From assembly GCA_018692315.1 (NCBI GenBank), contig JABHKC010000024.1:1-50450 (forward strand): DNA of 50,450 bases, read 5' to 3'. The position numbers and the translations under genes are program-made. The notes under the pieces are model-generated. The model had not been told where the DNA came from and did not search any database. It saw only the letters and a program-made list of their open reading frames with translations. Every line of letters begins with the position of its first letter. Positions within the stretch are counted from its first letter, which is position 1. Below, in pieces: positions 69 to 19,581 of the stretch. This DNA comes from Bacteroidota bacterium (GTDB taxonomy: Bacteria > Bacteroidota > Bacteroidia > Bacteroidales > JABHKC01).

Positions 69-353
69 CCCATATTTATTATCAAACAGATAATTAAAGA
101 TACCATCTGCCAAGGCATAGCTATAGAAAGAAGGGATCCCGAAGAAGCGTTTAGCAAAGATAAATATTTTCTCAAAAACTATTTTGAGTTTTAGATTTTT
201 GCCAATATAAATTGTAACAAAATAAGCTATAGCATTGATAAGGACAACAATATTTCTGATAGATCGGATATTGAACAAATTGAACTTTGCAAAAATTGCA
301 ACAATCGACTTGATGAAGGATTTGTATTTTGTCCATACTGTGGAATTCAATAG
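69..353 (+). pseudogene. Fragment of a zinc-ribbon protein (broken reading frame)
   Basis: The plus strand from 195 to 353 reads as 52 codons ending in a classic zinc ribbon: CKNC, ten residues, CPYC, then GIQ and a TAG stop at 351-353. In the same frame, 69-191 is also open and reads like ordinary protein, but TAG codons at 66-68 and 192-194 interrupt it. No convincing start is visible. I read this as the C-terminal remnant of a small zinc-ribbon protein that extends or extended left of the window. The longer minus-strand reading frame over the same bases has a skewed Ile/Phe composition and no recognisable motif. A sequencing error at either stop would restore a longer gene. Confidence 0.35.
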
Positions 354-696
354 GAATAATGATGAAAAAACCCATTAGACAATAAATAAAAGTAAAAATT
401 TCAGCAATTCTGAAATAAAAAAAAGTCCCGTACTTCAATACGGGACTTTTCTGAAAAAAATCAAACTCAAAATCTGAATTCAAAATTTTTGGATTTTTTA
501 TGAAAATAATTGCAATTTAAAAATTCAACTTAGGAGTTAATATTACATGTTTCGTTAAATACAATTGTCTCTGACAGAACTCGTAACTCGTATTCACGCA
601 ACTCACAACAAAAATTCAACTTACTACCTGCGATTTAAAAATTAATATTTTACTAATTTATTGAGGTCTGAATATAGTTCTATGTTTAGTAAATCA
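354..696. other. Intergenic region between the zinc-ribbon remnant and narK
   Basis: This 343-base stretch is AT-rich and lies 3' of both flanking genes, which converge on it. It holds the hairpin terminator at 421-450. I see no other gene or repeat; the reading frame across 172-483 on the minus strand runs through the terminator and is not credible. Confidence 0.5.
421..450. terminator. Bidirectional intrinsic terminator
   Basis: A perfect 12-bp stem (AAAAGTCCCGTA paired with TACGGGACTTTT) encloses the loop CTTCAA. The stem has an A run on one side and a T run on the other, so it can end transcription both ways. It lies downstream of the minus-strand nar operon and of the plus-strand zinc-ribbon remnant. 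Confidence 0.8.
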
Positions 697-2462: not shown

Positions 2463-4004
2463 CTAATCAAAACTATCTACAAATGCATTTTTGGGTTCTT
2501 TTAGCATTATAAAACAATATATGAGGCTAATCAAAGCACCGGCAGAAAGCATATATAAGAAAGATTTATCATCCATAAAATTGTATAAAAACAAATATGT
2601 TACAGCCCCAACATTACCAAAAGCTCCTGCCATACCGGCAATTCTTCCTGTCATTTCTTTTTTTATGGACGGAATCATTGCGAAAGTTGCACCTTCAGCA
2701 CCTTGAACAAAGAAAGAAGCAAACATTGTAATTGCTACAGAAACAATCAACCAACCAATCGTGTTAAATTGTGGAAGTAGTGTAACTTCACCCTCTGCAC
2801 CTATTGGTCCATATTTTGAAATAATCGCCATAAGAAAAAATCCAATTGAAATCCCTGCCATGTAAAGCAACATTGTATTCTTACGTTTTCCCATTTTATC
2901 GGAAATTAAACCTCCTAATGGACGAGCAACTAAATTCATAAAAGCAAATGAACCTGCAACTGCTCCTGCCATTGTTAAGGTCATAATACGAGATCCATCT
3001 TCATATAGTAAATTGCTGAAAACTTCATAAAAGAACATTGGAAGCATTGAAACGATAGCCAGTTCGGCACCAAAGTTTGCAAAATATGTAGTATTCAGTG
3101 CCCCAACACTTCCAAACGGGAATTTGTCTTTTTCCGGTACTCCAACTTTTAAGCGAGGAAGATTGGTTCTTACAATTCTTACAACATCGGCAAGATATAC
3201 TGCTCCAAGTATTATCCAGGCTATCCAAACTTGAGCCCAACTTATCATATGTTCGGCATAAATCATTTGCTTATGTAAAACATACACAACCAGCCCAAGA
3301 GCACCATATAATGGTAATTCCCAAACGATATATTGCACTAAATCAAAATAGGATGAAACGGGCATTGCACCTCCACTTTTCTTCTTGATGGAAGGTTTTA
3401 TTCCTTCAGGATAATCATTAACAATGAAGAAATATATTACACCGTATATTGCAGCTATTATGCTTGTAATTGCAAGAGACCAACGCCAGTCGCCCCCTAA
3501 CATATTCACAGCTACAAAAGGAACCATTGCAGCTGCAGCTGCAGATCCAAAGTTTCCCCAGCCGGCATAAAAACCTTCGGCTCGACCAATATATTTAGGT
3601 GTAAACCAGTTTGCTGTCATTTTGATACCAATAACAAAACCGGCACCAATGGCACCAAGAGCTAATCTTGATAAAACTAATTGTGTAAAGTTATTCCCAA
3701 AAGCAAATGTTAAACCCGGGATTATCATGATTACCATTAGACCTGCAAATATTCGTCTTGGTCCATACTTGTCAATCAAACCTCCTACAATAATTCGTGC
3801 AGGTATTGTTAAAGCCACGTTTGTTACCAATAATGCTTTAACGTTCGATTTCGAAAGCCATTCAAACTGTTCTATCATTTTTGAAAGAACACCGGCCATA
3901 TTGAACCATACAACAAATGTGAGAAAGAATGCTATCCAAGTAAGATGTAAAGTTCTTATACTCGGATCTTTAAAATTAATTAATGATGGTGCTATTTTGC
4001 TCAT
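2463..4004 (-). CDS. narK: NarK-family nitrate/nitrite transporter (first copy)
   Basis: A 513-residue major facilitator protein of the NarK/NasA group. The nitrate-transporter signatures are visible: NWFTPKYIGRAEGFYAGWGNFGSAA near residues 132-156 and GAEGATFAMIPSIKKEMTGRIAGMAGAFGN in the C-terminal half. An extended, partly hydrophilic central stretch (about 205-300) makes it longer than the E. coli protein. It lies 75 bp after narI and before a second, distinct NarK copy on the same strand, matching the common nar layout in which the reductase genes are followed by paired transporters. It should supply nitrate to the cytoplasmic NarG active site and export the nitrite formed. Confidence 0.88.
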   Translation of the reverse strand: MSKIAPSLINFKDPSIRTLHLTWIAFFLTFVVWFNMAGVLSKMIEQFEWLSKSNVKALLVTNVALTIPARIIVGGLIDKYGPRRIFAGLMVIMIIPGLTFAFGNNFTQLVLSRLALGAIGAGFVIGIKMTANWFTPKYIGRAEGFYAGWGNFGSAAAAAMVPFVAVNMLGGDWRWSLAITSIIAAIYGVIYFFIVNDYPEGIKPSIKKKSGGAMPVSSYFDLVQYIVWELPLYGALGLVVYVLHKQMIYAEHMISWAQVWIAWIILGAVYLADVVRIVRTNLPRLKVGVPEKDKFPFGSVGALNTTYFANFGAELAIVSMLPMFFYEVFSNLLYEDGSRIMTLTMAGAVAGSFAFMNLVARPLGGLISDKMGKRKNTMLLYMAGISIGFFLMAIISKYGPIGAEGEVTLLPQFNTIGWLIVSVAITMFASFFVQGAEGATFAMIPSIKKEMTGRIAGMAGAFGNVGAVTYLFLYNFMDDKSFLYMLSAGALISLIYCFIMLKEPKNAFVDSFD

Positions 4005-4079: not shown

Positions 4080-4799
4080 CTAATTATTTTTAGGCCGTTT
4101 TCCAACATGTATTTCTCGTGAATTCCTGATTTTATTTTTATCCCAGTTCCAAATTACTCTTTGATAGCTTCTGAAGAAATACCTAAATGGATATACTAAA
4201 AAGTGAACAAATCTGGTAAAAGGAATTATTGCTAAAATTGTAAATGCTGAAATTGCATGAATCTGAATAAAAATTGGCATTGCTTCAAGAGCCGCAGTAT
4301 CAGGCGATAATATAAACAGAGATTTTAAATAAGGTGTCATTGTAGATGCAAACCACGAAGTACCCCAACGATGGAAATATGCAACAATTAGTCCTGTAAC
4401 AATCTGAACAAATAATACAATATAAACAACTACATCCATTTTTGAAGTTACAATTTGAATTCTTTTTGTTTGTAACCTTCTAATAATTAAAATAATTAAT
4501 CCCCATAAGGCTGAAAGTGCAAACCCAAATGCAGCAATTTCAATTATCAAAAGTCGTAAATATTGTCCGTTCCATGCCAATACTGTTTCTGGGAAAAGAA
4601 AACCAATAAGATGTCCAAAAAATAAAAACATCAAACCCCAATGAAAAGGACGTACTCCTTTATAAAGGGTTCTCCCTTCAAGAAACTGCGATGACAATGA
4701 AGAGTATTCAAACTCTAATGATTGATACCTGTAAATTGTACCAATAATCATAATTAATATTGAGGCGTATGGCAGCCCTACAAAGAAGAAGTTACTCAT
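4080..4799 (-). CDS. narI: Respiratory nitrate reductase gamma subunit, cytochrome b
   Basis: A 239-residue integral membrane diheme cytochrome b with about five transmembrane segments. It anchors NarGH and in classical Nar oxidises quinol at the outer face, passing electrons inward to NarH. Candidate heme ligands fall where the family needs them: H53 and H63 in an early helix (PFHWGLMFLFFGHL) and H181 and H199 in the last helices, corresponding to H56, H66, H187 and H205 of E. coli NarI. Length matches the family. It follows narJ after a 43-bp gap. In this operon an alternative electron donor is encoded nearby, so NarI may receive electrons from cytochrome c as well as, or instead of, quinol; that is inference. 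Confidence 0.93.
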   Translation of the reverse strand: MSNFFFVGLPYASILIMIIGTIYRYQSLEFEYSSLSSQFLEGRTLYKGVRPFHWGLMFLFFGHLIGFLFPETVLAWNGQYLRLLIIEIAAFGFALSALWGLIILIIRRLQTKRIQIVTSKMDVVVYIVLFVQIVTGLIVAYFHRWGTSWFASTMTPYLKSLFILSPDTAALEAMPIFIQIHAISAFTILAIIPFTRFVHFLVYPFRYFFRSYQRVIWNWDKNKIRNSREIHVGKRPKNN

Positions 4800-4842: not shown

Positions 4843-5445
4843 TTACTTTCGTGATTTGCAGGCATGTGGGTTGCAGTTAATATTTTTTAGAAAATTTGTT
4901 TTGTCATTATTTGTAACAACAAATTGCTTATAGTTAAGATCTTTAAAGTCTGTTTCCATAATATTCAAAAGCGTTACCAGATTTTTTCTGTAAACATTAC
5001 TTTTGTCTTCAAAAGTTTTCAACATTTCTTTTAATGCTGGTATCATTATACTATAGCCTAATTCTTCTGCAAAATTTTTATCGGCAATTTTTGGCAACAA
5101 CCTTAACATATTTGGTAAATGATCAGCAAGTTCAGAACCACAATCGCTTTTTGCCTTAATATGCTCATTTCTTAAATTAACAAGAAACTCCCCTCTTTTG
5201 TAATCTTCTCCAAAAAGTATATAACCTATATCAAGATAGCACAAAGCTTGGATATCAAAAGTTTTAATGTAGTATTCAGTTTGTTTTTCAACGGGTGTTT
5301 CTTCAACAAAGGATAAAAAAGCCTCAACATTTTCCTGATTTTCAGGATAGAGATTAATAATAGTTTCATTTATTTCACTAACCTTTTTTGCTAAATCTTG
5401 GTTGGGATAACTAAATAGAGACGCTAATGCTGAATAATGTTTCAT
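4843..5445 (-). CDS. narJ: Nitrate reductase maturation chaperone (delta subunit)
   Basis: A 200-residue, mostly helical cytoplasmic protein of the NarJ/TorD chaperone family. NarJ binds apo-NarG, helps insert the molybdenum cofactor and holds the complex back from NarI until it is ready; it is not part of the final enzyme. The assignment rests on its place between narH and narI, on length, and on the family-like N-terminal region (LASLFSYPNQDL). The C-terminus is short, basic and carries two cysteines (CNPHACKSRK). Spacing is 50 bp from narH and 43 bp to narI. Confidence 0.85.
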   Translation of the reverse strand: MKHYSALASLFSYPNQDLAKKVSEINETIINLYPENQENVEAFLSFVEETPVEKQTEYYIKTFDIQALCYLDIGYILFGEDYKRGEFLVNLRNEHIKAKSDCGSELADHLPNMLRLLPKIADKNFAEELGYSIMIPALKEMLKTFEDKSNVYRKNLVTLLNIMETDFKDLNYKQFVVTNNDKTNFLKNINCNPHACKSRK

Positions 5446-5495: not shown

Positions 5496-6986
5496 TTATA
5501 ATCCTCGCTCTGGTTTATTTAAAAAGCCAAAACCGGTATTACCTTTAACATCGCCAGTATCTTCAATTAGTTCCATTGCTTCTTCACGGTGTGCTTCCGG
5601 TATAATAAACCGTTGTTCAAATTTTGCTAATGAAGTCAACCTAAAAATTGCATCGGCCATTTCGGTATCAATATTTGAAGCTCTTAGAGCTTCTACAGCT
5701 TCATTTTTGTCAATATCTCCAACTGTTACATCTCTACGATGAATTCTTACTGCTTGCAATTTTCTTAATACTTCTTTTATTTTTTCGGTATCACCGGCAG
5801 TAAACAGGCTCGCCAAATATTTTAGAGGAGGTCTTGTATCTTCAGCTTTTCCCCAAAGAGAATCAGTTGTACTATCATATGTATTACCCTTTGTACTTGC
5901 CATTGTTGGCAATAGTGGGGGTACATAAAATAAATTTGGTAATGTTCGGTATTCAGGGTGCAGAGGTAGTGCAATTCCCCATTTTTTCACAAACTTATAA
6001 ACAGGCGAATTCTGAGCTGCATCAATTGTTGAATCAGCAATACCATTCTTTTTTGCAGCAGCTATTACTGTTGGATCAAATGGATCTAAATAAATATCTA
6101 ATTGTTTTTCAACTAAATCTTTATTTTCACATGAAGCAATTTCTTCTATTCTGTCAGCATCATAAAGCATAACTCCAAGATAACGAATTCTACCAACACA
6201 TGTGTGCATACAAGCTGGTGCTTGCCCGGTTTCGACTCTAGGAAAACAAAGAATACATTTTTCTGATTTTCCAGTATTCCAATTATAATAACTTTTTTTA
6301 TAAGGACAAGCTGTTACGCACATTCTCCACGCACGACAACGTTTTTGATTTATAAGAACAATTCCGTCTTCACCTCTTTTGTAAATTGCTCCGGAAGGGC
6401 AAGATGCTACACAAGCAGGATTAAGGCAATGGTTGCATATCCTTGGCAGATAAAACATTACCATCCTTTCTAATTGGAACATTGTCTTTTTTTCTTCTTC
6501 GGTCAAATCCTGTAGGTTTGTGTCTTGTCGGGCATAGTCAATCGAACCACTGAGATCATCATCCCAATTTGGACCTGCTTTTACGTCAATAGGGTCGCCG
6601 GTAACTAATGAAACTGTCCGTGCCACAGGTTGGTCATCACCTTCAGGTGCCTCAAAAAGATTTGAATATTTATAGGTCCATGGTTCATAATAATCATCCA
6701 GAACTGGGAGATTAGGATTATGAAAAATTTTATTCATTCCCTTTACTTTACCTGCACCAATTAAATCGACCGATTCGCCTTTTTTCTTCCAACCACCTTT
6801 GTAGATTTCCTGATCCTCCCACTTCATAGGATAACCTGTTCCCGGTTTTGTTTCAACATTATTCCACCACATATATTCAGCTCCTTTTCTATCAGTCCAA
6901 ATATTTTTACATGCAATTGAACAAGTATGACAACCAATGCACTTATCCATATGGAATACCATTGATATTTGTGATCTTACGTCCAT
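5496..6986 (-). CDS. narH: Respiratory nitrate reductase beta subunit, iron-sulfur protein
   Basis: A 496-residue electron-transfer subunit carrying four iron-sulfur clusters between NarI and NarG on the cytoplasmic side. All four Cys groups are present: C16/C19/C22/C26; C184/C187/C192/C196; C217 with W220, C223 and C227 (the Trp variant marks the [3Fe-4S] site, as in E. coli); and C244/C247/C259/C263. The stretch PACVASCPSGAIYKR and the motif CVGRIRYLGV are typical of NarH. No export signal is present. It follows narG after 47 bp. Confidence 0.95.
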   Translation of the reverse strand: MDVRSQISMVFHMDKCIGCHTCSIACKNIWTDRKGAEYMWWNNVETKPGTGYPMKWEDQEIYKGGWKKKGESVDLIGAGKVKGMNKIFHNPNLPVLDDYYEPWTYKYSNLFEAPEGDDQPVARTVSLVTGDPIDVKAGPNWDDDLSGSIDYARQDTNLQDLTEEEKKTMFQLERMVMFYLPRICNHCLNPACVASCPSGAIYKRGEDGIVLINQKRCRAWRMCVTACPYKKSYYNWNTGKSEKCILCFPRVETGQAPACMHTCVGRIRYLGVMLYDADRIEEIASCENKDLVEKQLDIYLDPFDPTVIAAAKKNGIADSTIDAAQNSPVYKFVKKWGIALPLHPEYRTLPNLFYVPPLLPTMASTKGNTYDSTTDSLWGKAEDTRPPLKYLASLFTAGDTEKIKEVLRKLQAVRIHRRDVTVGDIDKNEAVEALRASNIDTEMADAIFRLTSLAKFEQRFIIPEAHREEAMELIEDTGDVKGNTGFGFLNKPERGL

Positions 6987-7033: not shown

Positions 7034-10000
7034 TTAATGGTCTTCAATAACAACTTTTTCCATTTTTTGAACAACAACATGAGTATCCCGATTTACACCA
7101 ACCGGTCCCCAATAATTAAAATGATAAGTAAATTGACCGTAGCCTCCAAGAAGTAAATTTGGTTTCAAGTGAACTCGTGTTAAACTATTATGTCCACCAC
7201 CACGGCGGTTTCCCCTGACTTGCGATTTTGCAAGTTGATAAGTACGTTCCGGTGAATGATAAACTATGCAAACACCTTTTGGAATTCGTGCACTTACGCA
7301 AGCTCTTGTGCAATACACTCCATTATCATTGTGAACTTCAACATAATCGTTATCTTTAATTCCCATTTCTTCAGCATCAATTTCACTCAACCAACATGGT
7401 TCTGTACCTCTCGACAAGGATAGCATTCGTAATGTATCTCCGTATGTTGAGTGAATATGCCATTTACCGTGAGGTGTAAGTACATTTAGAACTCTCGCCT
7501 TATCTTCAACTACGGTTTGCCGTAATTCTCCATAAACCTCAGGTTTTGGTGAGGGTTTATATGTTGGCAAATGTTCTCCGAATTTAATATAACCTTCATG
7601 ATCTAAATAAAAATGCTGACGACCTGTTAAAGTTCTCCATGGAACTAAACGTTCAATATTGTAAGTATAAGCTGAATAAGCTCTTCCGTCATTCATTAAT
7701 CCGGACCATAATGGTGAGTTATTGTATCGTTTAGGTTGTGCTTGCAGGTTTTTGTATGTCAATTTTACATCTTTGCTACCTTCACCTAAATCTCTAAGTT
7801 TCAACCCTGTGCGTTTCTCTGCATTTTCGTATGCCCTATCGCTTAAAACACCATTTGTAAGTGAAGAAAGGTGAAGTACTGCCTCAACTGCTTCTACATC
7901 GTCTTTTAGAGAAGGATAAATTTCTCCATCAATTTTTTGAATATGGTCTGGTTCTTTGAGCATCATATCATAATAATCTCCACATTGATAGGGATTACCA
8001 TGTGCTCCTAAACCATTTTTTATATTTCTGCCAAGACTGATATATTTCTCATAAATTTTTGTATAATCTCTTTCTACAATAGCAAGATTGTGCATTGTTT
8101 TGCCTGGTATAGGTTCACATTCACCCTTGCTCCAATCTTTTATTTCTGTTTGAGAAATTTCGCCGGGAGTGTCGTGTAAAATTGGCACATTTACAAGATC
8201 TTTTACCGGTGAAGGAATATGCTCTTTTGCTAATTCACTTGTAGCACGTGCAATTTCTTTAAAAATTTGCCAATCGCTTTTTGCTTCCCAAACCGGATTG
8301 ATAGCTGCAGATAATGGATGAATAAATGAGTGCATATCTGTACTATTCAAATCGGCCTTTTCGTACCACGAGGCTGCTGGGAGTACGATATCTGAATAAA
8401 GTGCCGAAGTATCCATTCTGAAGTTTAAATCTACAACTAAATCCATTTTTCCTTCAGGATTGTCATCTGTCCATTCTATATCTTTTACGAATTTATCTGC
8501 AACCTCGTCTGCTATAGTATTGTTATGTGTTCCAAGATAATGTTTTAAAAAGAATTCATGTCCTTTTGAACTTGAGTTTATTGCATTTCCTCTCCAAATA
8601 TACCACACTCGCGGAAAACTTTTTTCATTATCCGGTTTAGCAACAGCATGGATTAATTCTTTGCTTTTTAGTTTTTCAACAACATATTTTTTAATATCAT
8701 CGTCGTTTTTTGCACCCGATTTTTCGGCATCGGTAATAATATCAAGACTATTTTTTGTATATTGAGGATAAAATGGCATCCATCCGTTTCTCACAGCTTT
8801 AACAATATGATCAGCTGTATGTTGTTTCGAAAAATCGTTTTCCGGAACAGTATTATAGTCAGCTTGATTTCCGTCATATCTCCATTGGTTTGAATTAATA
8901 TAGTGCCAAATAGGAGCTTGTTGAAGTCTTACTGCAGATTGCCAATCTTTTGCGGACATAATTGCTGACCATGAATCCATCGGGGCAAGTTTTTCTTGTC
9001 CCACATAATGATTCATTCCTCCTCCGTTTACTCCAATACTTCCTGTTAGCATAAGTGCCATAGTCCCTGCTCGGTATATCAAATTATTGTGATACCAGTG
9101 ATTAATACCAGCACCAATTATAATCATACACTTACCGTTAGTAGCTTCAGCAGTTCTTGCCCATTCACGTGCAAACTGAAGAATAGTATTTCTTCCAATT
9201 CCTGTAAATATTTCTTGCCATGCCGGTGTATATGCAGTATTTTTATCATCATAAGATTCTGGGTAACTCCCTGCAAGACCTCTGTCAATTCCGTATTGTC
9301 CCATTATCAAATCATAAACAGTAGTAACAGGTACTTTTCCTCTTATCGTATCTACAAATTTTACTGGTACTCCTCGTTCTTCTTTTACACCAAGTCCAAA
9401 TTCGGTAAATTCAACTTGCAATACTTCGTCGTTGTTTTCAATCAAAGATAGAATTGGATCGTATGAAGTACCATCTTCTGCGTCTTCAAATTTCATATTC
9501 CATTTGCCAGGCTTGCTATCCCACCTGTGCCCAGAACTTCCTCCGGGGCAAACAAAATTTCCTGTTGCAGAATCAATGTTTAGGAATTTCCAATCGCCAT
9601 TCTCAATATTTTTGTATTTTTCTATCTGGTTAGCCCGCAACATTTTAGCAGGAACAAATTTGCCATTTTCTTCAACTAATTCAACAAGAAACGGACTATC
9701 AGTATATTTTTTTGTATAATCAATAAAATAAGGAGTTTTTTTATCAACATGGTATTCTTTGAGAATTACATGGGTAACAGCCATCCAGTATGCACCATCT
9801 TGACCGGCATGAATTGGAATCCATTGATCGGAATATTTTGCCACCATATTAAAGTCCGGAGACATTACAACTGTTTTTGTTCCATTGTGTCGGGCTTCAG
9901 AAAAGAAGTGTACATCAGGTGTTCTAGTCATTCCAAGATTGGCACCCATCGCTACAATGAATTTTGAATTATACCAGTCTGCACTTTCTCCAACATCTGT

Positions 10001-10654
10001 TTGTTCTCCCCAAATTTCTGGAAATGAGTTTGGAAGATCACAATACCAATCATAAAAACTGAGATTTATTCCACCCATAAGTTGTAAAAATCGCGAACCT
10101 GCAGCATAGCTTAGCATTGACATTGCAGGAATTGGAGAAAAACCAGTAATTCTATCAGGTCCATATCTTTTTACTGTAGATATATTAGAAGCTGCCATCA
10201 ATTCAAGTGCTTCATCCCATGATACTCTTCGGAATCCTCCTTTACCTCTTGCTTTTTGATATCTTTTTCTTTTTTCAGGATCGTTTTGAATATTTTCCCA
10301 TGCTTTTACGGCATCGCCTGTTTTTTCTTTTTCTGCTTTAAATAAATCAAGAAGAGCTCCACGCATCAATGGATATTTTACACGAATTGGACTGTATAAG
10401 TACCAAGAAAATGAAATTCCACGCTGGCAACCTCTTGGTTCATAAGGAGGTAATGAACTTTCTAATTCTGGATAATCTATGGCTTGTGTTTCCCATACAA
10501 CTATTCCATCTTTTACATGAATATTCCAACTACATCCGCCGGTACAGTTTACTCCGTGTGTACTACGAACAACTTTATCGTGTTGCCATCTGTTTCTGTA
10601 AAATTCTTCCCATTTTCTTAAATCCGGTCTAATTAAATCTTGTATCCAACTCAT
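7034..10654 (-). CDS. narG: Respiratory nitrate reductase alpha subunit, catalytic
   Basis: A 1206-residue molybdopterin enzyme reducing nitrate to nitrite, close to the usual 1220-1250 residues. The FS0 [4Fe-4S] ligands are H33, C37, C41 and C76 ([13 protein letters not shown] then EPRGCQRG). The molybdenum ligand is D206 in the motif LSFYDWYCD, the aspartate diagnostic of NarG-type enzymes. There is no twin-arginine signal, so the active site should face the cytoplasm, unlike archaeal-type or nitrite-oxidising relatives. It starts 67 bp after a diheme cytochrome c gene. Identification of the family is secure; nitrate as substrate is strongly supported by the adjacent narHJI and two narK genes. 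Confidence 0.97.
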
Positions 10655-10721: not shown

Positions 10722-11537
10722 TTATGAACTTCTTATTTGACGACTAAATATTTCGTCTCTCACTCCAGCTTTTTTTGTGTTTTTCCAAAACAGATTAATA
10801 ACTGCAAGAATTACTACAAAGAAAATTGCTCCAAATAGGAAGAACATTCCTTTGAACTGCCCGGGAGAATGGTATAATTGCTCTTCTTTTGTTGTTTTAA
10901 GAAATAATTCAAGATTTGCATGCTCTTCAACTGTAAGAGGTGAATTACTATATGAATTTATCATAGCCGGCATGCTTGTTTCCATTGATGCAACAACTCC
11001 TTCAACATAGGATGTTGATAAATCCATTGCCATAAGTCCTCCAAAAGACACTTCATTATGACGTATGTTATGACATGAGAGACAACTAGGACCTCCATTA
11101 ATTAATGCCAATTCGCCTGTGAACATTTGCCTTCCCTTTTCAGCATCAGGTTTAAATATCAACGATTCTTTTCCTGAACCTTCTTCACTACTACTATTTT
11201 CAGAAGCTCCTCCGCTTGCAATATAATCAAGCATTGCTTGAATTTCTGCTACAGAATTTGAATGTGATGGCATCGGTTTTTTCTTAAATTCTTCAAAAAT
11301 TGCAACAGCATCAGCATCTCCCGAAGCAATTAAATCTTTTGAAGATTTGATAAATTTAACTATCCAGTCGAAATCTCTTTTTGAAGTAACACCAGATAAA
11401 TCTGGTCCAACTTTGATTCCTCCGCCTATCGTATGACAAGCTTGGCAATGCTTTTTGTAAAGTGCAGCACCGTCTTGAGCATATGTAGTAGCTGCTAAGA
11501 ACAAAAATGATGCAATAAATGAAGCTATGTATTTCAT
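10722..11537 (-). CDS. Membrane-anchored diheme cytochrome c, NarC-like by position
   Basis: A 271-residue exported cytochrome. It has a signal peptide (about 1-20), a first heme site C31-QA-C34-H35 with a probable Met ligand in the PMP motif (88-90), a second heme site C152-LS-C155-H156 with candidate Met ligands near 189-192, and one C-terminal transmembrane helix (about 229-250). The soluble part should be periplasmic. The first domain aligns without gaps to the N-terminal domain of ActA (35 of 76 residues identical by hand count). It sits between actF and narG. Thermus nar operons also begin with a diheme cytochrome gene (narC) before narGHJIK, so this may be a functional counterpart linking ACIII to Nar. 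Homology to Thermus NarC could not be tested; no cytochrome oxidase subunit domain is visible. Confidence 0.8.
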   Translation of the reverse strand: MKYIASFIASFLFLAATTYAQDGAALYKKHCQACHTIGGGIKVGPDLSGVTSKRDFDWIVKFIKSSKDLIASGDADAVAIFEEFKKKPMPSHSNSVAEIQAMLDYIASGGASENSSSEEGSGKESLIFKPDAEKGRQMFTGELALINGGPSCLSCHNIRHNEVSFGGLMAMDLSTSYVEGVVASMETSMPAMINSYSNSPLTVEEHANLELFLKTTKEEQLYHSPGQFKGMFFLFGAIFFVVILAVINLFWKNTKKAGVRDEIFSRQIRSS

Positions 11538-11562: not shown

Positions 11563-12756
11563 TTAATGTAATTCGTGCATTAAGCTTTCTTCAATATATG
11601 GATGATTTTCGGGTATCAGTTTTGCTTTACTCAATGTTCTTGAAACTGCAAAAATAAACAATCCCAAGAACCCTAAGAACATGCCTATTTCAACAAAACC
11701 TATAGAATTAATACCCATAGGTGAGGATTCTGAAATTGTTGAGCCGGGCATAACTTGTAAATATAAATCAACCCACATTCCAATCATTAAAACTACAGCA
11801 GTAATTAAAAGTGCATTTATGTTTTTTGCAATTTTGTTTAACATTAAAAATAAGAATGGAAATAACCAATTAAGAATAACATTTACATAGAAAAGTACTT
11901 TCCATTCACCACTAATTCTTGTTTGATAGTAAAAAGTTTCTTCAGGCATGTTTGCATACCAAATTAATAGAAATTGCGAAAACCACATATATGCCCAAAT
12001 AATTCCGAGAATGAACATATATTTTGACAAATCATGTAAATGAGATTTATTCAACATAGGAAAATGTCCTTGTTTATGTAACAGAATTACTATCAATGCT
12101 AATATTGCTGAGCCATGCAAAAATGCTGACACAAGATTCTTAATAGCAAATATAGTACTGAACCAATGAGCATCTATCGACATTATCCAATCAAATGTTC
12201 CAAAGCTAAATGTTACAGCTAGAGCAAAAATGAATACTTTTGAATAGAATTCACTTTTGTGAAAATATTCCATTCCTCCAATCAAATCTTCTTTTAATGA
12301 AAATTTTCGTAACAAAGCAATTAAGACAATCCAAACTGCGAAAATGATCAAATATCTTATTATAAAAAATGGAGTATTCAGATAAGGTGATTTGTGTTTT
12401 AGTAATGCGTCAGCTTCAACTGCATCGTGGTGTGACCAGTGGTATATTGAATGTGCCCCAAAAAGCACAAAAATAAATAAAAGTACTGCTGCATAAGGAA
12501 TATAGCTTCCCATAGCTTCTGCAATTCTTTTAAACATTGACGACCAGCCGGATTGAGTAATATATTGAATTGCCATGAAGAAAGTAGCTCCTATCGCAAG
12601 AGATATGAAATAATAGTTGTTTATCAAATAGTTTGCCCAAGTTCTTTGAGGATTTGACAAAAACCCTACGATTATAGCCGCAATACCGATAAGGACAAGG
12701 ATAATTGAAGCTATCCTTAATTTTGGTGATACTGTATATGCTTTATCCATTTTCAA
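11563..12756 (-). CDS. actF: Alternative complex III membrane subunit ActF
   Basis: A 397-residue protein with about ten transmembrane helices, belonging to the smaller of the two polytopic subunits of alternative complex III (quinol:cytochrome c oxidoreductase). ActF is a distant relative of ActC. Supporting features are the serial hydrophobic helices, the loop FGTFDWIMSIDAHWFSTIFA, and its position after actE. The C-terminus (ENHPYIEESLMHELH) resembles other Bacteroidota ActF proteins from memory. It starts 60 bp after actE and is followed after 25 bp by the diheme cytochrome gene. Confidence 0.88.
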   Translation of the reverse strand: MKMDKAYTVSPKLRIASIILVLIGIAAIIVGFLSNPQRTWANYLINNYYFISLAIGATFFMAIQYITQSGWSSMFKRIAEAMGSYIPYAAVLLFIFVLFGAHSIYHWSHHDAVEADALLKHKSPYLNTPFFIIRYLIIFAVWIVLIALLRKFSLKEDLIGGMEYFHKSEFYSKVFIFALAVTFSFGTFDWIMSIDAHWFSTIFAIKNLVSAFLHGSAILALIVILLHKQGHFPMLNKSHLHDLSKYMFILGIIWAYMWFSQFLLIWYANMPEETFYYQTRISGEWKVLFYVNVILNWLFPFLFLMLNKIAKNINALLITAVVLMIGMWVDLYLQVMPGSTISESSPMGINSIGFVEIGMFLGFLGLFIFAVSRTLSKAKLIPENHPYIEESLMHELH

Positions 12757-12816: not shown

Positions 12817-13419
12817 CTATTTTTCTAATTTGTTTTTTATATAACTTACAACTTTCCATCTATCTTCGGGTTTTATTTGTGCACTATGCGAGCCCATAAA
12901 TCCCGAAACTGAACCCATTGTGATAACATGAAATATCTCTCCATCGGGTTTGTTTTGTACAAAATCATCAACTAGTGAGGTAACTTCTGTGTTGAATTTT
13001 CTGGAAGTTACTAAATGTCCGTCACCTTTTCCTGTTTCGCCGTGACACATTGCACAATTTATTTTGTAGATTTCTTGTGCTTCTATATAATCTTGTTCGG
13101 TAGGCAACAATGGGTTTTTCAAATTAATACCAGCCATAACTTGTCCAGAATCTGTTCTTTGATATTGATATGGAATTGCTCCTCTTGCGATTGTTCCGGC
13201 AACTGGTGGCTGAGCAGTTTTTCCATCTGTAAAATTCGGATTAATGGAGTAATATTCATAGGCTTCGGAAGGTGCCATATCGTTAAAATATGTATATCCT
13301 GGATGATTCCTATTATCATGATTACAGGATGAAAAAATCAAAAGCATTGAAAGAACTACTAATATTGTCGAATTTCTGAATTTATTTTGCATAAGAAGTT
13401 TAGCTTTAAATATTTTCAA
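12817..13419 (-). CDS. actE: Alternative complex III monoheme cytochrome c subunit ActE
   Basis: A 200-residue (annotated start) lipoprotein cytochrome c. It has a lipobox ending SSC at about residue 32 and one heme site C122-AM-C125-H126, with a probable Met ligand in the GSVSGFMGSHS stretch. ActE sits on the periplasmic face of ACIII and passes electrons outward. Starting at the Met at residue 10 (near 13392) gives a more typical lipoprotein signal and removes a 14-bp overlap with actD, so that start is more likely. The motif SGFMGSHSAQIKPEDRWKVV is shared with other ActE proteins. Its neighbours are actD and actF. Confidence 0.88.
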   Translation of the reverse strand: MKIFKAKLLMQNKFRNSTILVVLSMLLIFSSCNHDNRNHPGYTYFNDMAPSEAYEYYSINPNFTDGKTAQPPVAGTIARGAIPYQYQRTDSGQVMAGINLKNPLLPTEQDYIEAQEIYKINCAMCHGETGKGDGHLVTSRKFNTEVTSLVDDFVQNKPDGEIFHVITMGSVSGFMGSHSAQIKPEDRWKVVSYIKNKLEK

Positions 13420-13948
13420 TATTTTCTTTTTCTCCGGTTTCTATTGCTCCATTTTCGAATAAAACAGAATTTATTCTATTTGTTTCTTCTTTCGACATAT
13501 CTTCAGGTTTTTCAATAACAATTACAAATTTGTCGTCTGTAATATCGTTATGAACAACAACTGCTTCTTTGCCTGGTCCAAGTTTTTGTCTGATAAAAAA
13601 AGTACCAAGTGATAAAACAATTCCAACATTGATAGTCATAACAAACAGAATAATTATAAACGAAAGTGTATTATTTGGTTTTCCGCCTATTACAATTGGA
13701 ATGTCAATAACAGAAGTCCAATACAAAAAAGCATAAGTTAATGAAATACCAAATACTCCATATATGAATGCAGCATATGGCATTCTAGTTTTTAGTCCCA
13801 TTTCATGAAAAACTTCGTGAATTGGATATGGAGTAAAGACATTTTTGATTTTTATTCCGGCAGACTTTATTTTTTTCATCGCCTCAAGGAAAATATCTTC
13901 CTCATCGAAAACTCCAAATATATTGTTATTTTTATCAGTACTAATCAT
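13406..13948 (-). CDS. actD: Alternative complex III membrane subunit ActD (DUF3341)
   Basis: A 180-residue protein with a soluble N-terminal region and two transmembrane helices (about 79-98 and 107-130). The stretch IKNVFTPYPIHEVFHEMGL is the hallmark of the DUF3341/ActD family. ActD is a small structural subunit of ACIII. It overlaps actC by 8 bp at its 5' end and abuts or overlaps actE at its 3' end, which implies translational coupling. The C-terminal tail (SVLFENGAIETGEKE) is typical of the family. Confidence 0.9.
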   Translation of the reverse strand: MISTDKNNNIFGVFDEEDIFLEAMKKIKSAGIKIKNVFTPYPIHEVFHEMGLKTRMPYAAFIYGVFGISLTYAFLYWTSVIDIPIVIGGKPNNTLSFIIILFVMTINVGIVLSLGTFFIRQKLGPGKEAVVVHNDITDDKFVIVIEKPEDMSKEETNRINSVLFENGAIETGEKENIENI

Positions 13949-15293
13949 TGCTTGTTGGTTTTAATACTCCCTTAACTTCGCTAATTGCAATCATGGGAAT
14001 GTATTTGAAAAATAATAATACTCCACAAACAAATAATCCCAACGTTCCGACATATACACCTACTTCTACAACTGTAGGAGAATATGATGACCAATTTGAT
14101 GGCAAATAATCTTTCGACAAGGAGGTAATTACTATTACATATCTTTCGAACCACATTCCAAGATTTATAAACAATGAGATTATAAATACAATAGTGATAT
14201 TTTTTCTAATTTTTTTGAACCAAAACAGTTGTGGAATAAGAGCATTACAAATTACCATCCCGTAGAAACCAATCATATAATCTCCGGTAATTCGATTATT
14301 GAAGAATGTGTAAAACTCATATTCACTCCCCGAATACCATGCGATAAATATCTCTGTTGAGTAGGCAGTTCCCATTATCAAGCTTATAAAAATAAGAATT
14401 TTTGCAATTGCGTTTAAATGTTTATCAGTAACATAAGCTTGATATTTATAAAACTTTCGGATAATAATCATAAGTGTGAGTACCATTCCGAAACCTGAGA
14501 ATATTGCTCCAATTACAAAATAAGGAGGAAAAACTGTAGTATGCCAACCCGGCATTACCGATGTTGCAAAGTCCATAGAAACTATTGAATGAACAGATAT
14601 AACAAGTGGAGCAGTCAAACCACCAAGAATCATTGCCAAAGCTTCAAAACGAAGCCATCCTCTTGCAGAACCAACCCATCCGAAACTCAGAAAACCATAT
14701 ATTGCTTTTTTTGTTTTTGAAATGGTTTTATCTCGAATCGTAGCAAAATCAGGAATCATTCCAATATACCAAAAAGTTGCGGAAGCCATTAAATATGTAC
14801 TAATTGCAACAACATCCCAAAAAAGTGGAGAATTGAAATTTACCCATAGTTCTCTTGTAGTTGGGTAGGGTATAATGAATTTAGCCATCCAGATTCGTCC
14901 CATATGAATTAGAGGAAATAGTCCGGCACACAACACAGCAACCACGGTCATTGCTTCTGCTGCACGGTTTATGGATGTTCGCCATTTTTGTCTTACAATC
15001 AACAGGAATATTGAAAATGCAGTTCCTGCATGACCAATTCCAATCCACCAAACAAAATTGACAATTCCCCATCCCCAGGCAACAGAGTTGTTCAATCCCC
15101 AAGTACCAATGCCTTCAGTAATTGTTATGTAAAAAGCCCATGCACCCCAAAGCATTGCAGCTATGCTAATAGAAAAAGCATATATCCACCACTTTGGAGG
15201 TTTATTTTCAATCGGTGCAACAATGTCTTTGGTAATATCAGCATACGATTTATTACCTTCAACGAGTACTCCTCTTACCTTAGTTTTATACAT
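13941..15293 (-). CDS. actC: Alternative complex III polytopic subunit ActC (NrfD/PsrC family)
   Basis: A 450-residue membrane protein with about ten transmembrane helices, of the NrfD/PsrC-like family. In ACIII, ActC binds quinol near the periplasmic side and contacts the iron-sulfur part of ActB. The N-terminal phrase ADITKDIVAPIENKPPKWW and the segment NFVWWIGIGHAGTAFSIFL are characteristic. It follows actB after 95 bp and overlaps actD by 8 bp. The first 15 or so residues before SYADIT are poorly conserved in the family from memory, so the exact start is uncertain. Confidence 0.93.
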   Translation of the reverse strand: MYKTKVRGVLVEGNKSYADITKDIVAPIENKPPKWWIYAFSISIAAMLWGAWAFYITITEGIGTWGLNNSVAWGWGIVNFVWWIGIGHAGTAFSIFLLIVRQKWRTSINRAAEAMTVVAVLCAGLFPLIHMGRIWMAKFIIPYPTTRELWVNFNSPLFWDVVAISTYLMASATFWYIGMIPDFATIRDKTISKTKKAIYGFLSFGWVGSARGWLRFEALAMILGGLTAPLVISVHSIVSMDFATSVMPGWHTTVFPPYFVIGAIFSGFGMVLTLMIIIRKFYKYQAYVTDKHLNAIAKILIFISLIMGTAYSTEIFIAWYSGSEYEFYTFFNNRITGDYMIGFYGMVICNALIPQLFWFKKIRKNITIVFIISLFINLGMWFERYVIVITSLSKDYLPSNWSSYSPTVVEVGVYVGTLGLFVCGVLLFFKYIPMIAISEVKGVLKPTSND

Positions 15294-15388: not shown

Positions 15389-18300
15389 TTAGCTTTTCGT
15401 ATTTCTAACCTTCGTTAAATAACCTACTGACGGACGTGTATTTACTTGCTCCAATAAAAAATAATTTCTTTCATCGGAATAAGCTTTAGAAACTGCACTT
15501 TCTGACATATTCAAATCGCCAAATACTATAGCATCTGCCGGGCAGGATTGAAGACATGCTGGTTTAATTTCACCGTCTTTCAGCTCTCTGTTTTCTTTTT
15601 TGGTGTCAAGTTTTTTCTCTTGAATTCTTTGAATGCAGAACGAGCATTTTTCAACTACACCACGTGTTCTTACAACCACATCAGGATTCAAAACCATTTT
15701 TCCTAAATCGCTGTTCATATTGTAATCAAACTTATCGTTGTTTGAATATTCATACCAATTGAATCTTCGTACTCTATAAGGACAATTATTCATACAATAA
15801 CGAGTTCCAATACATCTATTGTAAGCCATGTCGTTCAGACCTTCTTTGCTATTTTGTGTTGCCGCAACCGGACATACATTTTCGCAAGGTGCATTGTCAC
15901 AATGTTGGCACATCACAGGATGGAAAAATACTTCGGGCTCTTCTGCTTTTTCTGCATAATACCTGTCAATTCTCATCCAATGCATGATACGCTTGTTTCG
16001 AACTTCATCGCGACCTATAACCGCAACATTATTTTCGGCCTGACAAGCAATTACACATGCACTGCATCCGGTACAAGAATTCAGATCTATTGCTAAAGCC
16101 CAATGATGTCCTTTAAACTCTCGTTCATTATATAAAGATTGTTTGTGTTTTTCTGCTTCAACGTGTTCTTCGTTTCCGGCAGAAGGATTATTTTTGTATT
16201 TTTCCAGTACAGTTGTGTGGACATGGTTACGTCCGTGCATTGTATGATGAGTTTGTGTAAGTGCTAAAATATAATTTTCTCCTGTAGGAACAAGTTTAAT
16301 ATCATTACCGTTGTATTTTCTGGTTCCATCACCTCTAACAAGTCTAAATGCATTTTGTCCTACAGCATTTGCTACTTTCCCTGCATTACTTCTCCCAAAT
16401 CCTAAGGCAATTGCAACTGTATTCTCTGCTTGTCCGGGCTGAACAAGTATCGGCAATTCAAATAAATCATCAACAATTACAATATCTCCTAGAGATAAAT
16501 GATTTTTGTCAGCAAATGTTTTTGAAACGGCAAGATAATTATCCCAACAAACTTTTGAAATTGGGTCTGGTAATTCTTGTAACCATGGATTATTTGCCTG
16601 TTTTCCGTCTCCCAGTCCTATACTTTCGTACAAAACAAACTCAATTGCTCTTTCACCAGCATCAGTACTTTTAAGTTTAGAAGCGCAGTATGAAATGTTT
16701 CCGGATGAATAATTTACAACTGTCGGATTGTTATTTTCTGATGACGAATTGCTTGAAGAAAATACGCCAGCCTGAAGTGTATTATTCCAAAATTCAGTGA
16801 AAAGAATATATTTTGATTGCTTCGAGAATAAATTTGATTCCCAATATTTTTTAATATAAGAATAATAAACATCTTTTTTTACAGTATTTTCTGCATTAGG
16901 TTCAATATTGCCAGACCAAGTAATTAGGCTTTCTTGGGCTTGACGTGTATTAAAAAGTTTATTTATAGTAGGTTGTGTTAAACTGAAAAAATCTCTTTTA
17001 AATTCAGAATCATTCCAAGATTCTAAATAATGATTGTCTGGACAAACATAGGTGGCAAGTTTTGCTGTTTCATCCAATGTATTTGAAAATGAAACGGAAA
17101 GTTTAGTTTTGCTTAGTGCCGCAGTGAATGCTTCTGAATTTTGATAATCGTAAGCTGGATTTACATTGTACATCAAGAGTGCTCCAATTTCACCTTTATT
17201 CATACGTGTAGTGAGATTATCCATTTCGCTATCAATGCCTTGTCTAATATAAACCGGTTGGTCAATATTTATGGTTATTCCATAATTGCCGAGCATTGAG
17301 TTAATATCGTTTATTACAAGCTGAATATTGGTATCATTTGAACCTGAAACTACAAGTGATTTGCCTTTTGCATACCATAATTCATCGGCAAGCGACTCGA
17401 CATTAACTGTAGATTTGGGTGCCAAAACTGTTGCTTTACCGGCTTTTTTTGCAATATAATTATAAAGACTCAAAATTGCCCCGGCTTCTTGCGATGGATT
17501 TATTGGTATTCTAAAATCAGCATTACTTCCTGTTAATGTAAGCGTTGATTCAAATTGAACATGTTTCGACATCTTCAAATTTGTTTTACTTAGCTTTCTA
17601 TTTTTTGAGTACTGTTTTGTGTATTCTATTGGTGAAATCCAATTTCCAAGAAAATCGGCACCAAAACTTACTATCAAATCTGCTTTATCAAAATTGTATG
17701 AAGGTAAATTCGACAATCCGAAATTTTGTTGATTTGCTTCAATGATTCCTGATGCAGAAACAGAATCGTAATTAATTATTTCTGAAGTAGGATATTTTCT
17801 TTTGAAATCTTCAAAAATGCTTTTAGTGGAAGGACTTATTACTGTAGATGAAAGAATTACTATTCTGCTATTCTTCTTTGCTATTTCATCTAGAGTCCCA
17901 ACAATTTCAGTATCTATTTCTTCCCATGTTATTTCCTGCTTGTTTTTTAAGGGATTTTTAATTCTGTAATTATCGTATAAACTCAATACAGATGCTTGAA
18001 CTCTTGCGTTTGTCCCACCTTTTGTAATTGGACATAAATCATTGCCCTCAATTTTTATTGGTCGTCCTTCACGTGTTTTTACAACTACACTACAGTAATC
18101 ATATCCATCAAAAAAGGTTGACGCATAGTAATTTGCATTACCTGGAATTATATTTTCAGGCTTAATTAAATATGGTATAGCTTTGTTAATAGGATTTTCA
18201 CAACTTGCGGCTAAAGTAACAAAACCAACTCCAAAACCAAGCATTTTCATAAAATCACGGCGCGATGTTTTCCCACTCTTCTGAATCTCATCTTCAGATA

Positions 18301-18397
18301 ATCCATCAATTGGAAATTCCGGTTCCGGTTCCTTTTTAGTTTTTGAATCTATGTCTAATTCCTCTAAACTTCTCCAATAATCTTTCATACTTTGCAA
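15389..18397 (-). CDS. actB: Alternative complex III iron-sulfur/molybdopterin-fold subunit ActB
   Basis: A 1002-residue exported subunit combining a molybdopterin-oxidoreductase-like domain without obvious cofactor ligands (about 60-700) and a C-terminal ferredoxin-like domain. The Tat motif S45-RRDFMK and a following hydrophobic stretch ending AASC show periplasmic export. Cluster ligands are C775/C778/C781/C785, C830/C833/C838/C842, C862/C868/C872 and C918/C921/C948/C952. It passes electrons from quinol at ActC to the heme subunits. A Met at residue 4 (18388) is the likelier start, since relatives begin MKxYWxSLEEL. It lies 29 bp after actA and 95 bp before actC. Confidence 0.94.
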   Translation of the reverse strand: MQSMKDYWRSLEELDIDSKTKKEPEPEFPIDGLSEDEIQKSGKTSRRDFMKMLGFGVGFVTLAASCENPINKAIPYLIKPENIIPGNANYYASTFFDGYDYCSVVVKTREGRPIKIEGNDLCPITKGGTNARVQASVLSLYDNYRIKNPLKNKQEITWEEIDTEIVGTLDEIAKKNSRIVILSSTVISPSTKSIFEDFKRKYPTSEIINYDSVSASGIIEANQQNFGLSNLPSYNFDKADLIVSFGADFLGNWISPIEYTKQYSKNRKLSKTNLKMSKHVQFESTLTLTGSNADFRIPINPSQEAGAILSLYNYIAKKAGKATVLAPKSTVNVESLADELWYAKGKSLVVSGSNDTNIQLVINDINSMLGNYGITINIDQPVYIRQGIDSEMDNLTTRMNKGEIGALLMYNVNPAYDYQNSEAFTAALSKTKLSVSFSNTLDETAKLATYVCPDNHYLESWNDSEFKRDFFSLTQPTINKLFNTRQAQESLITWSGNIEPNAENTVKKDVYYSYIKKYWESNLFSKQSKYILFTEFWNNTLQAGVFSSSNSSSENNNPTVVNYSSGNISYCASKLKSTDAGERAIEFVLYESIGLGDGKQANNPWLQELPDPISKVCWDNYLAVSKTFADKNHLSLGDIVIVDDLFELPILVQPGQAENTVAIALGFGRSNAGKVANAVGQNAFRLVRGDGTRKYNGNDIKLVPTGENYILALTQTHHTMHGRNHVHTTVLEKYKNNPSAGNEEHVEAEKHKQSLYNEREFKGHHWALAIDLNSCTGCSACVIACQAENNVAVIGRDEVRNKRIMHWMRIDRYYAEKAEEPEVFFHPVMCQHCDNAPCENVCPVAATQNSKEGLNDMAYNRCIGTRYCMNNCPYRVRRFNWYEYSNNDKFDYNMNSDLGKMVLNPDVVVRTRGVVEKCSFCIQRIQEKKLDTKKENRELKDGEIKPACLQSCPADAIVFGDLNMSESAVSKAYSDERNYFLLEQVNTRPSVGYLTKVRNTKS

Positions 18398-18426: not shown

Positions 18427-19581
18427 CTAATAGTGACATTTTGAACAATTAGTTCCGCCAACGTCATCTACAGTAACTTCTTTTATTTTTCCGGACTTAA
18501 TATCCTCGTGATGTTTGTAGGATGAATAGTATTTATTATCAAACTGAACTTTTTCTGTTTTATGGCAATTTATACACCATCCCATGCTCAAATCATTAAC
18601 TTGTTGAATCCTTCCCATTTTTTCAACTTCACCATGGCATTTATTACAATCCAATTTGCCAACATTAACATGCTGCGCATGACTAAAGAAAACATGGTCG
18701 GGTAAGCTATGAACTTTTACCCATTGAATTGGTTCTTTCGATTCGAAGGCTTTGTGAATTTTATTTATCTCTTCTTCGCCAGTATTTGTTCCGTATCGGA
18801 TTACATTGTGACAGTTTAGGCAAAGATTAGCAGATGGAATAGATGAATGCCGGCTCTCAAATGAGCTTGTATGGCAATAGTTGCAATCAATTTTATTATC
18901 ACCAGCATGAATTCTATGTGAAAATTTTATTGGTTGGTCCGGCTCAAAACCTTGACTTCTTCCCAAATATGTTGCTTCTTCGTTAATGGCTTTTCCTGAA
19001 ATTGCAAAACCTACAAATATTAGCATAACATTAATAAGCCTTATTTTTAACAGTCTTGTGAATGCTAAATCTATTAGTGGAATGAGAATTAATAAGATTC
19101 CAAGTATAAAAACCCAAGAGGTTGAAGTAGGCGCATTATTAAAATCATTATCAAGAAAGTTTGGATCAGCATCTAATTTTTTTGTTTCAAAAGTAATATA
19201 ATCAACTAATGATAAAACTTCATCCTTAGAATAATCATGACGAGGCATAGGAAGATTTTCATTTTCTTTGAAAAGTCTTAATGCTGCAGTATCTCCAGAA
19301 GCAATAACTAAATCTGAAGCTTGAATAAATTTAATTAACCACTCTTCAGAATGCTTTTCTTTGATACCTGCTAAATCTGGTCCAATAAGTCTTCCTTTAC
19401 CAATTGTATGGCATCGTGCACAAGACTCAAATAGTTCTGATTGAGACCTCATTGAAAGCGTAGTTTCTTTTTTTATGGAATCGGCAACTGTAATTTCTTT
19501 GAGTTTAATAGTATCATTTTGTGCCGAAACATTTATGATTACTAAAAAATAAAATACAGATAGTGAAATAACAAATTTCAT
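18427..19581 (-). CDS. actA: Alternative complex III multiheme subunit ActA with an extra monoheme domain
   Basis: A 384-residue exported multiheme cytochrome c. After a signal peptide (1-20) comes an extra monoheme domain with C54-AR-C57-H58 and a PMP motif (110-112), then two hydrophobic segments (about 155-176 and 182-199), then the standard five-heme ActA region with CxxCH at 233, 254, 312, 336 and 379. Family ActA is pentaheme, so this is a six-heme version. The extra domain matches the N-terminal domain of the diheme cytochrome at 10722-11537. It is the first gene of the unit, with 750 bp of non-coding DNA upstream, where its promoter must lie. Confidence 0.93.
   Translation of the reverse strand: MKFVISLSVFYFLVIINVSAQNDTIKLKEITVADSIKKETTLSMRSQSELFESCARCHTIGKGRLIGPDLAGIKEKHSEEWLIKFIQASDLVIASGDTAALRLFKENENLPMPRHDYSKDEVLSLVDYITFETKKLDADPNFLDNDFNNAPTSTSWVFILGILLILIPLIDLAFTRLLKIRLINVMLIFVGFAISGKAINEEATYLGRSQGFEPDQPIKFSHRIHAGDNKIDCNYCHTSSFESRHSSIPSANLCLNCHNVIRYGTNTGEEEINKIHKAFESKEPIQWVKVHSLPDHVFFSHAQHVNVGKLDCNKCHGEVEKMGRIQQVNDLSMGWCINCHKTEKVQFDNKYYSSYKHHEDIKSGKIKEVTVDDVGGTNCSKCHY

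Follow-up and report, generated by a model that had tools for sequence, protein, structure and literature searches.

The gene at positions 10722 to 11537 of the DNA analyzed here (the window, the whole stretch of 50,450 nucleotides) almost certainly encodes a Bacteroidota NarC, the diheme subunit that is anchored in the membrane on the periplasmic side of a nitrate reductase of the Thermus type (NarCGHI). In the window, narC stands between the ACIII genes actABCDEF and narGHJI, and the best reading of this arrangement, in our judgment an even call, is that electrons flow from ACIII via NarC to NarI; docking, direction, and coupling are what we infer. Related narC genes of the phylum are paired with a particular kind of narG, and two separate groups of them adjoin a quinol-oxidizing module.

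The narC gene is part of an unbroken run of 13 genes on the minus strand that extends from position 19581 down to position 697 in the order actABCDEF-narC-narGHJI, followed by two narK-like genes (Table 1). The intergenic gaps within this run range from -14 to 98 bases. Its upstream part qualifies as an ACIII locus by the set actABCDEF with a pentaheme ActA and a member of the ActD family; ActF was assigned by its position and likeness. The stem at 452-419, downstream of the second narK-like gene that closes the run, is the sole minus-strand terminator-like stem of more than nine pairs in the region; the numbers of terminator-like and promoter-like sites in the region show no excess over shuffled sequences. 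We considered an FNR-type box before actA and rejected it: the four pattern matches in the window correspond to the chance level, and none of them lies ahead of actA.

Table 1. Features of the act-nar gene run in the window and of the NarC protein encoded within it (nucleotide positions refer to the window, residues to the protein).
Feature	Position	Strand	Description	Basis
actA	18427..19581	(-)	N-terminal mono-heme domain (residues ~48-130) and pentaheme part	
actB	15389..18397	(-)	molybdopterin-like and Fe-S	NCBIfam scan and synteny
actC	13941..15293	(-)	NrfD-like	PF03916
actD	13406..13948	(-)		PF11821 ActD, 1e-36
actE	12817..13419	(-)	mono-heme cytochrome	PF13442
actF	11563..12756	(-)	second NrfD-like membrane subunit	position and likeness to ActC; no Pfam or NCBIfam match
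narC-like	10722..11537	(-)	diheme cytochrome c, 271 aa	ORF, motifs, profiles
NarC N-terminus	start of the 10722..11537 protein		signal-like	judged by eye
NarC heme domain 1	residues ~20-108		CQACH31-35, probable Met89 ligand	motif and Met invariance
NarC heme domain 2	residues ~130-220		CLSCH152-156, probable Met192 ligand	motif and Met invariance
NarC C-terminal membrane helix	residues ~228-252			hydropathy
narG	7034..10654	(-)	short, Thermus-like, 1206 aa	TIGR01580, 1462 bits (cut-off 1084)
narH	5496..6986	(-)		gene order and direct reading; likewise after narG in related loci
narJ-like	4843..5445	(-)	chaperone	position and conservation; no Pfam match
narI	4080..4799	(-)		PF02665, TIGR00351
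narK-like	2463..4004	(-)	MFS transporter	PF07690; NarK name from context
second narK-like	697..2364	(-)	MFS transporter	PF07690; NarK name from context
terminator-like hairpin and T-run	419..452	(-)	15-pair stem, 3' of the last gene	consensus match only

The first-pass annotation had described a membrane-anchored diheme cytochrome located right before narG, in the position that narC takes in Thermus. Both parts of this description are borne out. The protein contains two CxxCH motifs (C31QACH and C152LSCH), for which Met89 and Met192, invariant among the relatives, are the probable heme ligands, and a single strong hydrophobic segment close to its C-terminus (top 19-residue window 232-250, mean hydropathy 2.84); a gap of 67 bases separates its gene from narG on the same strand. 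In the two annotated Thermus plasmid loci that we inspected, the cytochrome gene likewise lies directly before narG and ends 2 bases ahead of it. Pfam and NCBIfam assign to the window protein only a generic cytochrome c label, and no confident match to an oxidase subunit arose in these scans: NCBIfam scored the protein at 16.6 bits for ccoP (cut-off 180) and at 38.3 bits for QcrC (cut-off 200), the latter match, below cut-off, spanning residues 19-220 (9e-10). Among solved structures, the region of domain 2 matches cytochrome c chains of bc1. An AlphaFold2 model of NarC built from three rows was unusable (mean pLDDT 39, pTM 0.20).

When 72,556 plasmid records were searched by tblastn, 27 contained a match, and 20 of these were listed; among the matches listed, those covering both domains (query residues 21-219) came from 13 records, all of them from Thermus thermophilus. 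These Thermus plasmids are the material with which NarC was compared outside the phylum. A profile of 17 Bacteroidota relatives matched Thermus NarC over its full length (7e-40). Searches with a separate profile for each heme domain, a check suggested earlier, gave a strong match to Thermus NarC for domain 2 (4e-28) and a weak one for domain 1 (4e-4), and domain 2 can therefore be viewed as the constant NarC module. The Thermus narCGHJI system thus shares with the window two heme c domains, a C-terminal anchor, the position right before narG, and homology over both domains; it differs in that domain 1 is another heme domain and in that no ACIII genes adjoin narC in the two loci inspected. A similar divergence of domain 1, next to a conserved domain 2, was found in four genomes of one family in our phylum sample (G393, G398, G403, and G408; loci L252-L255), and there, too, the cytochrome gene precedes narG.

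Two kinds of narG are present among the 393 genomes sampled from the order, 30 of which possess narG at E <=1e-100. The 14 genes of the long kind encode proteins of about 1230-1250 aa and score 1797-2024 bits, while genes of the short kind (19, the complete ones of about 1205 aa) score 1430-1497 bits and match the model only from position 22-29 onward. The narG gene of the window belongs to the short kind (match from model position 27), and its product is 59% identical to Thermus NarG, compared with 48% for one long NarG. According to excerpts from PMC10609526, the Thermus protein is devoid of the usual N-terminus. We saw no twin-arginine signal by eye in the window NarG, which is therefore probably cytoplasm-facing.

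NarC is the nearest gene ahead of narG in all 17 short genes of the order sample for which upstream DNA is available, and in none of the 12 long genes with upstream DNA (Fisher p 2e-8, kinship ignored). Two further short genes stand outside this count, since narC is located on another contig (G167) or the gene is broken near a contig end (G070), as do two more long genes that begin at contig ends. Both kinds coexist in G040, G129, and G013 (loci L025, L086, and L028/L051), each genome carrying a long narG without narC and a short one with it; the long gene of G013 begins at a contig end. In a sample of 395 genomes from the phylum, 90 gave matches to the cytochrome, 65 of them to domain 1 only. 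Matches that include domain 2 were found in 24 genomes besides that of the window, and narG is the next gene in 24 of 24, or in 23 of 24 when a gap rule is applied; the one miss (G447) has narC and narG side by side, with an over-long narG frame (1254 aa). This set was chosen by its NarC and therefore tests only whether narG follows. Besides the window genome, NarC occurs in 17 genomes sampled from the order and in 24 sampled from the phylum.

The membrane subunit NarI differs along the same line. All 46 aligned NarI proteins keep the four heme b histidines (residues 53, 63, 181, and 199 in the window protein). Lys86 of the Escherichia coli protein, which we take to be a residue of the quinol site, has a lysine counterpart in 11 of 12 long-type NarI proteins and in 0 of 34 NarC-type proteins, Thermus included; the alignment of this residue is ambiguous by one position, phmmer pointing to Arg82 of the window NarI and counting from a shared histidine to Leu83, with no lysine either way. 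The NarC-type proteins carry V, L, I, M, or A at this place, followed by Arg in 32 of 34 and, five places on, by Glu in 34 of 34. The two proteins without this Arg have Trp (G002) and Gly (G169), and both belong to the clade in which narC follows an FeS-NrfD-cytochrome module (see below). As Lys86 and the residues after it split by NarC type, the quinol end of NarI differs together with NarC. The absence of Lys86 does not prove that quinol oxidation is lost, because the NarI partner of Thermus NarC also lacks this residue and yet electron transport in Thermus denitrification without the bc complex has been reported (a title cited in PMC7694296).

An ungapped alignment of the cytochrome (residues 31-106) with ActA (residues 54-129) had been counted by hand at 35 identities over 76 residues. 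This count is exact; among 300 composition-shuffled versions of the ActA segment, none gave more than 16 identities. The likeness between NarC and ActA is real and family-wide: profiles of domain 1, run on the fetched ORFs, matched most ActA N-terminal domains at 9e-28 to 1e-42, as compared to 1e-19 at best for other non-NarC cytochromes. Among solved structures, the best match for domain 1 is 2l4d, part of a protein named as SCO1/SenC family (3.6e-14; 1.6e-25 with a profile query), which in both searches ranks ahead of ActA of Flavobacterium johnsoniae (6btm_A, 6e-12 with the single query) and matches domain 1 only; the domain class is therefore wider than ActA. In the F. johnsoniae ACIII, the mobile heme domain is of the same class as NarC domain 1, and its proposed task is to carry electrons to cytochrome aa3 (PMC8552683, excerpts). 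It differs from the window protein in being a part of ActA rather than a separate diheme protein, and the presumed partner here is Nar.

In a tree of 48 such domains, NarC and ActA stand apart from five others, although weakly (73/70), and within this group the two are mixed and for the most part not separated (91 columns, 17 of 45 inner branches open, bootstrap unsettled). The idea that narC or actA recently received the domain from the other gene within this operon was rejected: the NarC domain of the window groups with NarC domains and its ActA domain with those of the ActA proteins of L009 and L010, so the likeness is old. The earlier reading of the cytochrome is hence extended, by the homology with NarC over both domains and by the family-wide occurrence of the domain shared with ActA, and at the same time narrowed, as a recent copy within the operon is excluded and the SCO1 domain outranks the solved ActA. 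The N-terminal domains of ActA fall into two kinds. Of the 34 best-scoring ActA proteins, 23 match NarC domain 1 (24 when the ActA of L089, at 2e-28, is included), 10 match domain 2 (3e-7 to 9e-15), and none matches both; NarC thus combines two domains that are found singly at the head of ActA. ActA proteins of the domain-2 kind are encoded at L103, L108, L110, L111, L113-L116, L019, and L023, and the domain had no Pfam match in the two that were scanned. The ActA frame of L098 (G264) contains a second, partial heme domain of the domain-1 type in tandem. Among the NarC proteins of the phylum sample, 18 of 22 matches to domain 1 were at 4e-24 or better and four were weak. Domain 1 of the Bacteroidota NarC is accordingly in most cases of the class of the ActA mobile domain, while Thermus and four others carry a different domain 1.

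The order actABCDEF-narC-narGHJI is intact in two other Bacteroidota MAGs (L009 and L010) and is probably the same in G262, where actF is split over two contig ends (175 and 137 aa). The spacing between actF and narC amounts to 25 bases in the window, 12 in L010, and 13 in L009, at a NarC identity of about 71%. In a narG tree built by a quick method without bootstrap and flagged for long branches that join at the Thermus sequence, the window, L009, L010, and G262 form one clade (97) that is nested among rows without ACIII. In a second clade (95; G002, G317, and G169), narC follows an FeS-NrfD-cytochrome c module. Module-like FeS and cytochrome genes also lie, divergently oriented, beside narC in G167, with no NrfD gene on that short contig. 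Within the fetched DNA, the 44 Bacteroidota narC loci comprise 4 next to ACIII, 4 next to the module (counting G167), and 36 with neither; the upstream DNA usually comprised 5-14 kb, about 2-3 kb in two cases and 0 and 24 bases in two others, and a narC fragment at a contig end of G005 was left out of this count. The adjacency of ACIII to narC arose once, in one small clade.

Seen from the side of ACIII, nar genes are present only in G262 among the 17 ACIII loci of the order that we fetched, while five of these loci have oxidase-like genes downstream, three of them confirmed by PF00115. ActA is encoded in 64 of the 393 genomes of the order, after removal of four that were matched only via NarC. 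It was found in 12 of the 19 NarC-type genomes, the other seven having no ActA match beyond NarC itself, compared with 2 of the 11 long-type-only genomes (p 0.026; G005 counted here despite its narC fragment) and 52 of the 374 others (p 3e-6), kinship being ignored in both comparisons.

In textbook NarGHI, it is NarI itself that oxidizes quinol. In the arrangement encoded by the window, menaquinol would instead be oxidized by ACIII, and the electrons would exit via the pentaheme part of ActA, ActE, and the mobile heme domain of ActA to NarC. By analogy with the Thermus protein, NarC would in all likelihood dock on the periplasmic side of NarI. Its domain 2 would then pass the electrons to the distal heme b of NarI, from where they would cross the membrane to NarH and NarG for the reduction of nitrate on the cytoplasmic side. 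NarC would thereby make Nar cytochrome-c-linked, with ACIII added as a coupling site. This link between ACIII and NarC is supported by the conserved gene order, by the tightness of the run, and by the two clades that have a quinol-oxidizing module beside narC. The lack of Lys86 in NarC-type NarI and the ActA-like class of domain 1 in most Bacteroidota NarC proteins also speak for it. In the window, L009, and L010 genomes, NarC is the electron acceptor encoded closest to ACIII, which cannot work without one. The L010 genome (completeness not given) contains ACIII, NarC, and Nar and gave no match to a heme-copper oxidase; the L009 genome has one. The genome of the window, which is 99.6% complete, encodes one ActA, a single heme-copper oxidase in the form of a fused cbb3 enzyme, NrfHA, and Nap genes, and ACIII may feed the cbb3 oxidase instead of, or as well as, NarC.

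Several observations count against the link between ACIII and NarC: the 36 of 44 loci without ACIII or the module, the 7 of 19 NarC-type genomes without a further ActA match, the single origin of the adjacency, a cytochrome b (PF00033) encoded in each of the L009 and L010 genomes, the Arg kept next to the Lys86 place in most NarC-type NarI, and the retention of all heme histidines by NarI. The rarity of ACIII beside narC and the kept histidines suit a different account, to which we give a lower but still appreciable likelihood, in which NarC matures and anchors NarGHI and acts as an outlet from NarI to periplasmic acceptors as in Thermus, NarI oxidizes menaquinol, and ACIII is co-expressed at low oxygen and serves the cbb3 oxidase. 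Genetic and two-hybrid data from Thermus favor such a role: according to excerpts from PMC7694296 and PMC10609526, NarC is required for the maturation of Nar and interacts with NarI in two-hybrid assays; under repression of complex III, growth on nitrite or NO also depends on it, a finding explained in the original work by an electron bridge out of Nar. The outlet proposed there leads from Nar to the nitrite and NO reductases, opposite in direction to a feed from ACIII (PMC7694296, excerpts).

An outlet is also favored by relatives of COX1 of the size of an NO reductase (743-767 aa, 184-221 bits; classed by size and score), which are present in 10 of 21 NarC genomes, and G067 has a further one of 451 aa. 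On the other hand, none of these 21 genomes has a NirS-length match (the best are short, <=41 bits), and a NirK score above the cut-off was reached once. In the three genomes with a certain ACIII-NarC adjacency (window, L009, and L010), there was no NirS, no heme-copper NO reductase, no true NosZ, and no NirK above the cut-off; for the window genome, the NirK model reached 34 of 296 bits and NosZ-like matches and a PF00033 cytochrome b were absent. NosZ was searched with a single model (TIGR04246), which gave a 25-bit partial match in the L009 genome and strong matches, still below cut-off, only in G067. Since NirS, NO reductase, NosZ, and NirK were not found, a Thermus-type outlet would be without a known client in the window, L009, and L010 genomes. 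Nitrite reduction in the window genome falls to NrfHA, and NrfH is normally fed from quinol. Furthermore, an outlet that replaces complex III would be redundant next to ACIII, and two separate acquisitions of quinol modules beside narC would be left unexplained. Beyond these alternatives, NarC could serve both electron directions.

Apart from the act-nar run, the window contains a separate Nap cluster on the plus strand (25354-31818) that comprises genes for a CBB3-type cytochrome, napA, napG, napH, napB, and NapD; the assignments of napA, napG, and napH were made by eye. The first cytochrome of the cluster has a C-terminal hydrophobic stretch, again judged by eye, and shares about 30% identity with the one in the G002 module. 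Elsewhere in the same genome (G000:C188, 25000-44900; L031), genes for multiheme, FeS, NrfD, and cytochrome proteins cluster, possibly as a further quinol:cytochrome c module. A plus-strand gene pair in the window (42569-45472) encodes proteins with an SMEK domain (PF21941) and DUF2326 (PF10088); it resembles a candidate anti-phage ATPase pair (PADLOC PDC-M68B, 6e-66) and sits between a parA-like (41656-42447) and a parB-like gene (45702-46586), both named by eye.

We regard it as improbable that ACIII and narC are mere neighbors by chance, placed side by side when the DNA of one clade was rearranged long ago, and exchange no electrons. Their adjacency arose a single time, and among the 17 ACIII loci, one with nar genes faces five with oxidase-like genes, as such a chance event would have it; nevertheless, the spacing between actF and narC has stayed tight while the NarC proteins diverged to their present identity. 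Very unlikely, finally, is a reversed complex operating as a nitrite oxidoreductase, with electrons passing from NarG via NarH, NarI, and NarC to an oxidase and ACIII running backwards to reduce quinone: a very similar cluster in Nitrobacter, where a NarC homologue takes the electrons of nitrite oxidation (PMC7694296, excerpts), the cbb3 oxidase, and the two NarK-like transporters would fit, but Nap genes and an ammonia-forming NrfHA make up the kit of a nitrate ammonifier, and NarG shares the identity given above with the nitrate-reducing enzyme of Thermus.

Other systems offer parts of the arrangement proposed here. The actinobacterial QcrC protein is membrane-anchored and bridges directly to the oxidase; it resembles NarC in its two heme c domains and differs in its partners, which are bc1 and the oxidase rather than ACIII or Nar. 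In MAGs of Planctomycetota and KSB1, nar genes have been described beside a six-gene cluster in 13 instances (PMC10732223); from the sections consulted, this cluster reads as an actABCDEF-like ACIII. There, however, Nar is located upstream, no NarC is named in those sections, and the authors proposed either a new nitrite reductase or a role within the respiratory chain. For Caldithrix abyssi, ACIII has been proposed to pass electrons to NapM, a cytochrome of Nap (PMC5317091), and in some N2O reducers ACIII reportedly takes the place of bc1 (PMC9270275); in the excerpts at hand, these cases differ from ours in that the reductases are periplasmic and NarC is not involved, Caldithrix being devoid of nar genes. 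We found no proposal of an ACIII-NarC-Nar chain in the titles and abstract openings of the papers listed on ACIII together with nitrate reductase, narG, or NarC, or on NarC together with Bacteroidetes, a search that covered few subscription journals. New here are the pairing of NarC with the short narG, the split at Lys86 of NarI, and the clades with ACIII and with the module.

According to a review (PMC7694296, in the part consulted), the Nar operons of mesophiles lack NarC. Our data place NarC in many Bacteroidota genomes (growth temperatures not given), accompanied by a distinct kind of NarG and, in the loci where NarI was seen, by a distinct kind of NarI. Owing to this spread across the Bacteroidota, the unsettled role of NarC becomes testable in many organisms, for which the clades with ACIII and with the module provide natural contrasts. 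With ACIII as its electron source, a NarC-bearing Nar would be linked to cytochrome c, and the energy conserved per nitrate could rise. In a more far-reaching and rather doubtful version, ACIII and the cytoplasm-facing NarGHI would be joined through NarC into an anaerobic respirasome, a counterpart for nitrate of the ACIII-aa3 supercomplex, in which all quinol electrons would pass through ACIII and NarC and none would enter at NarI, with the same bridge leading from the FeS-NrfD-cytochrome c module in the second clade. If true, such a respirasome would give nitrate respiration a second coupling site.
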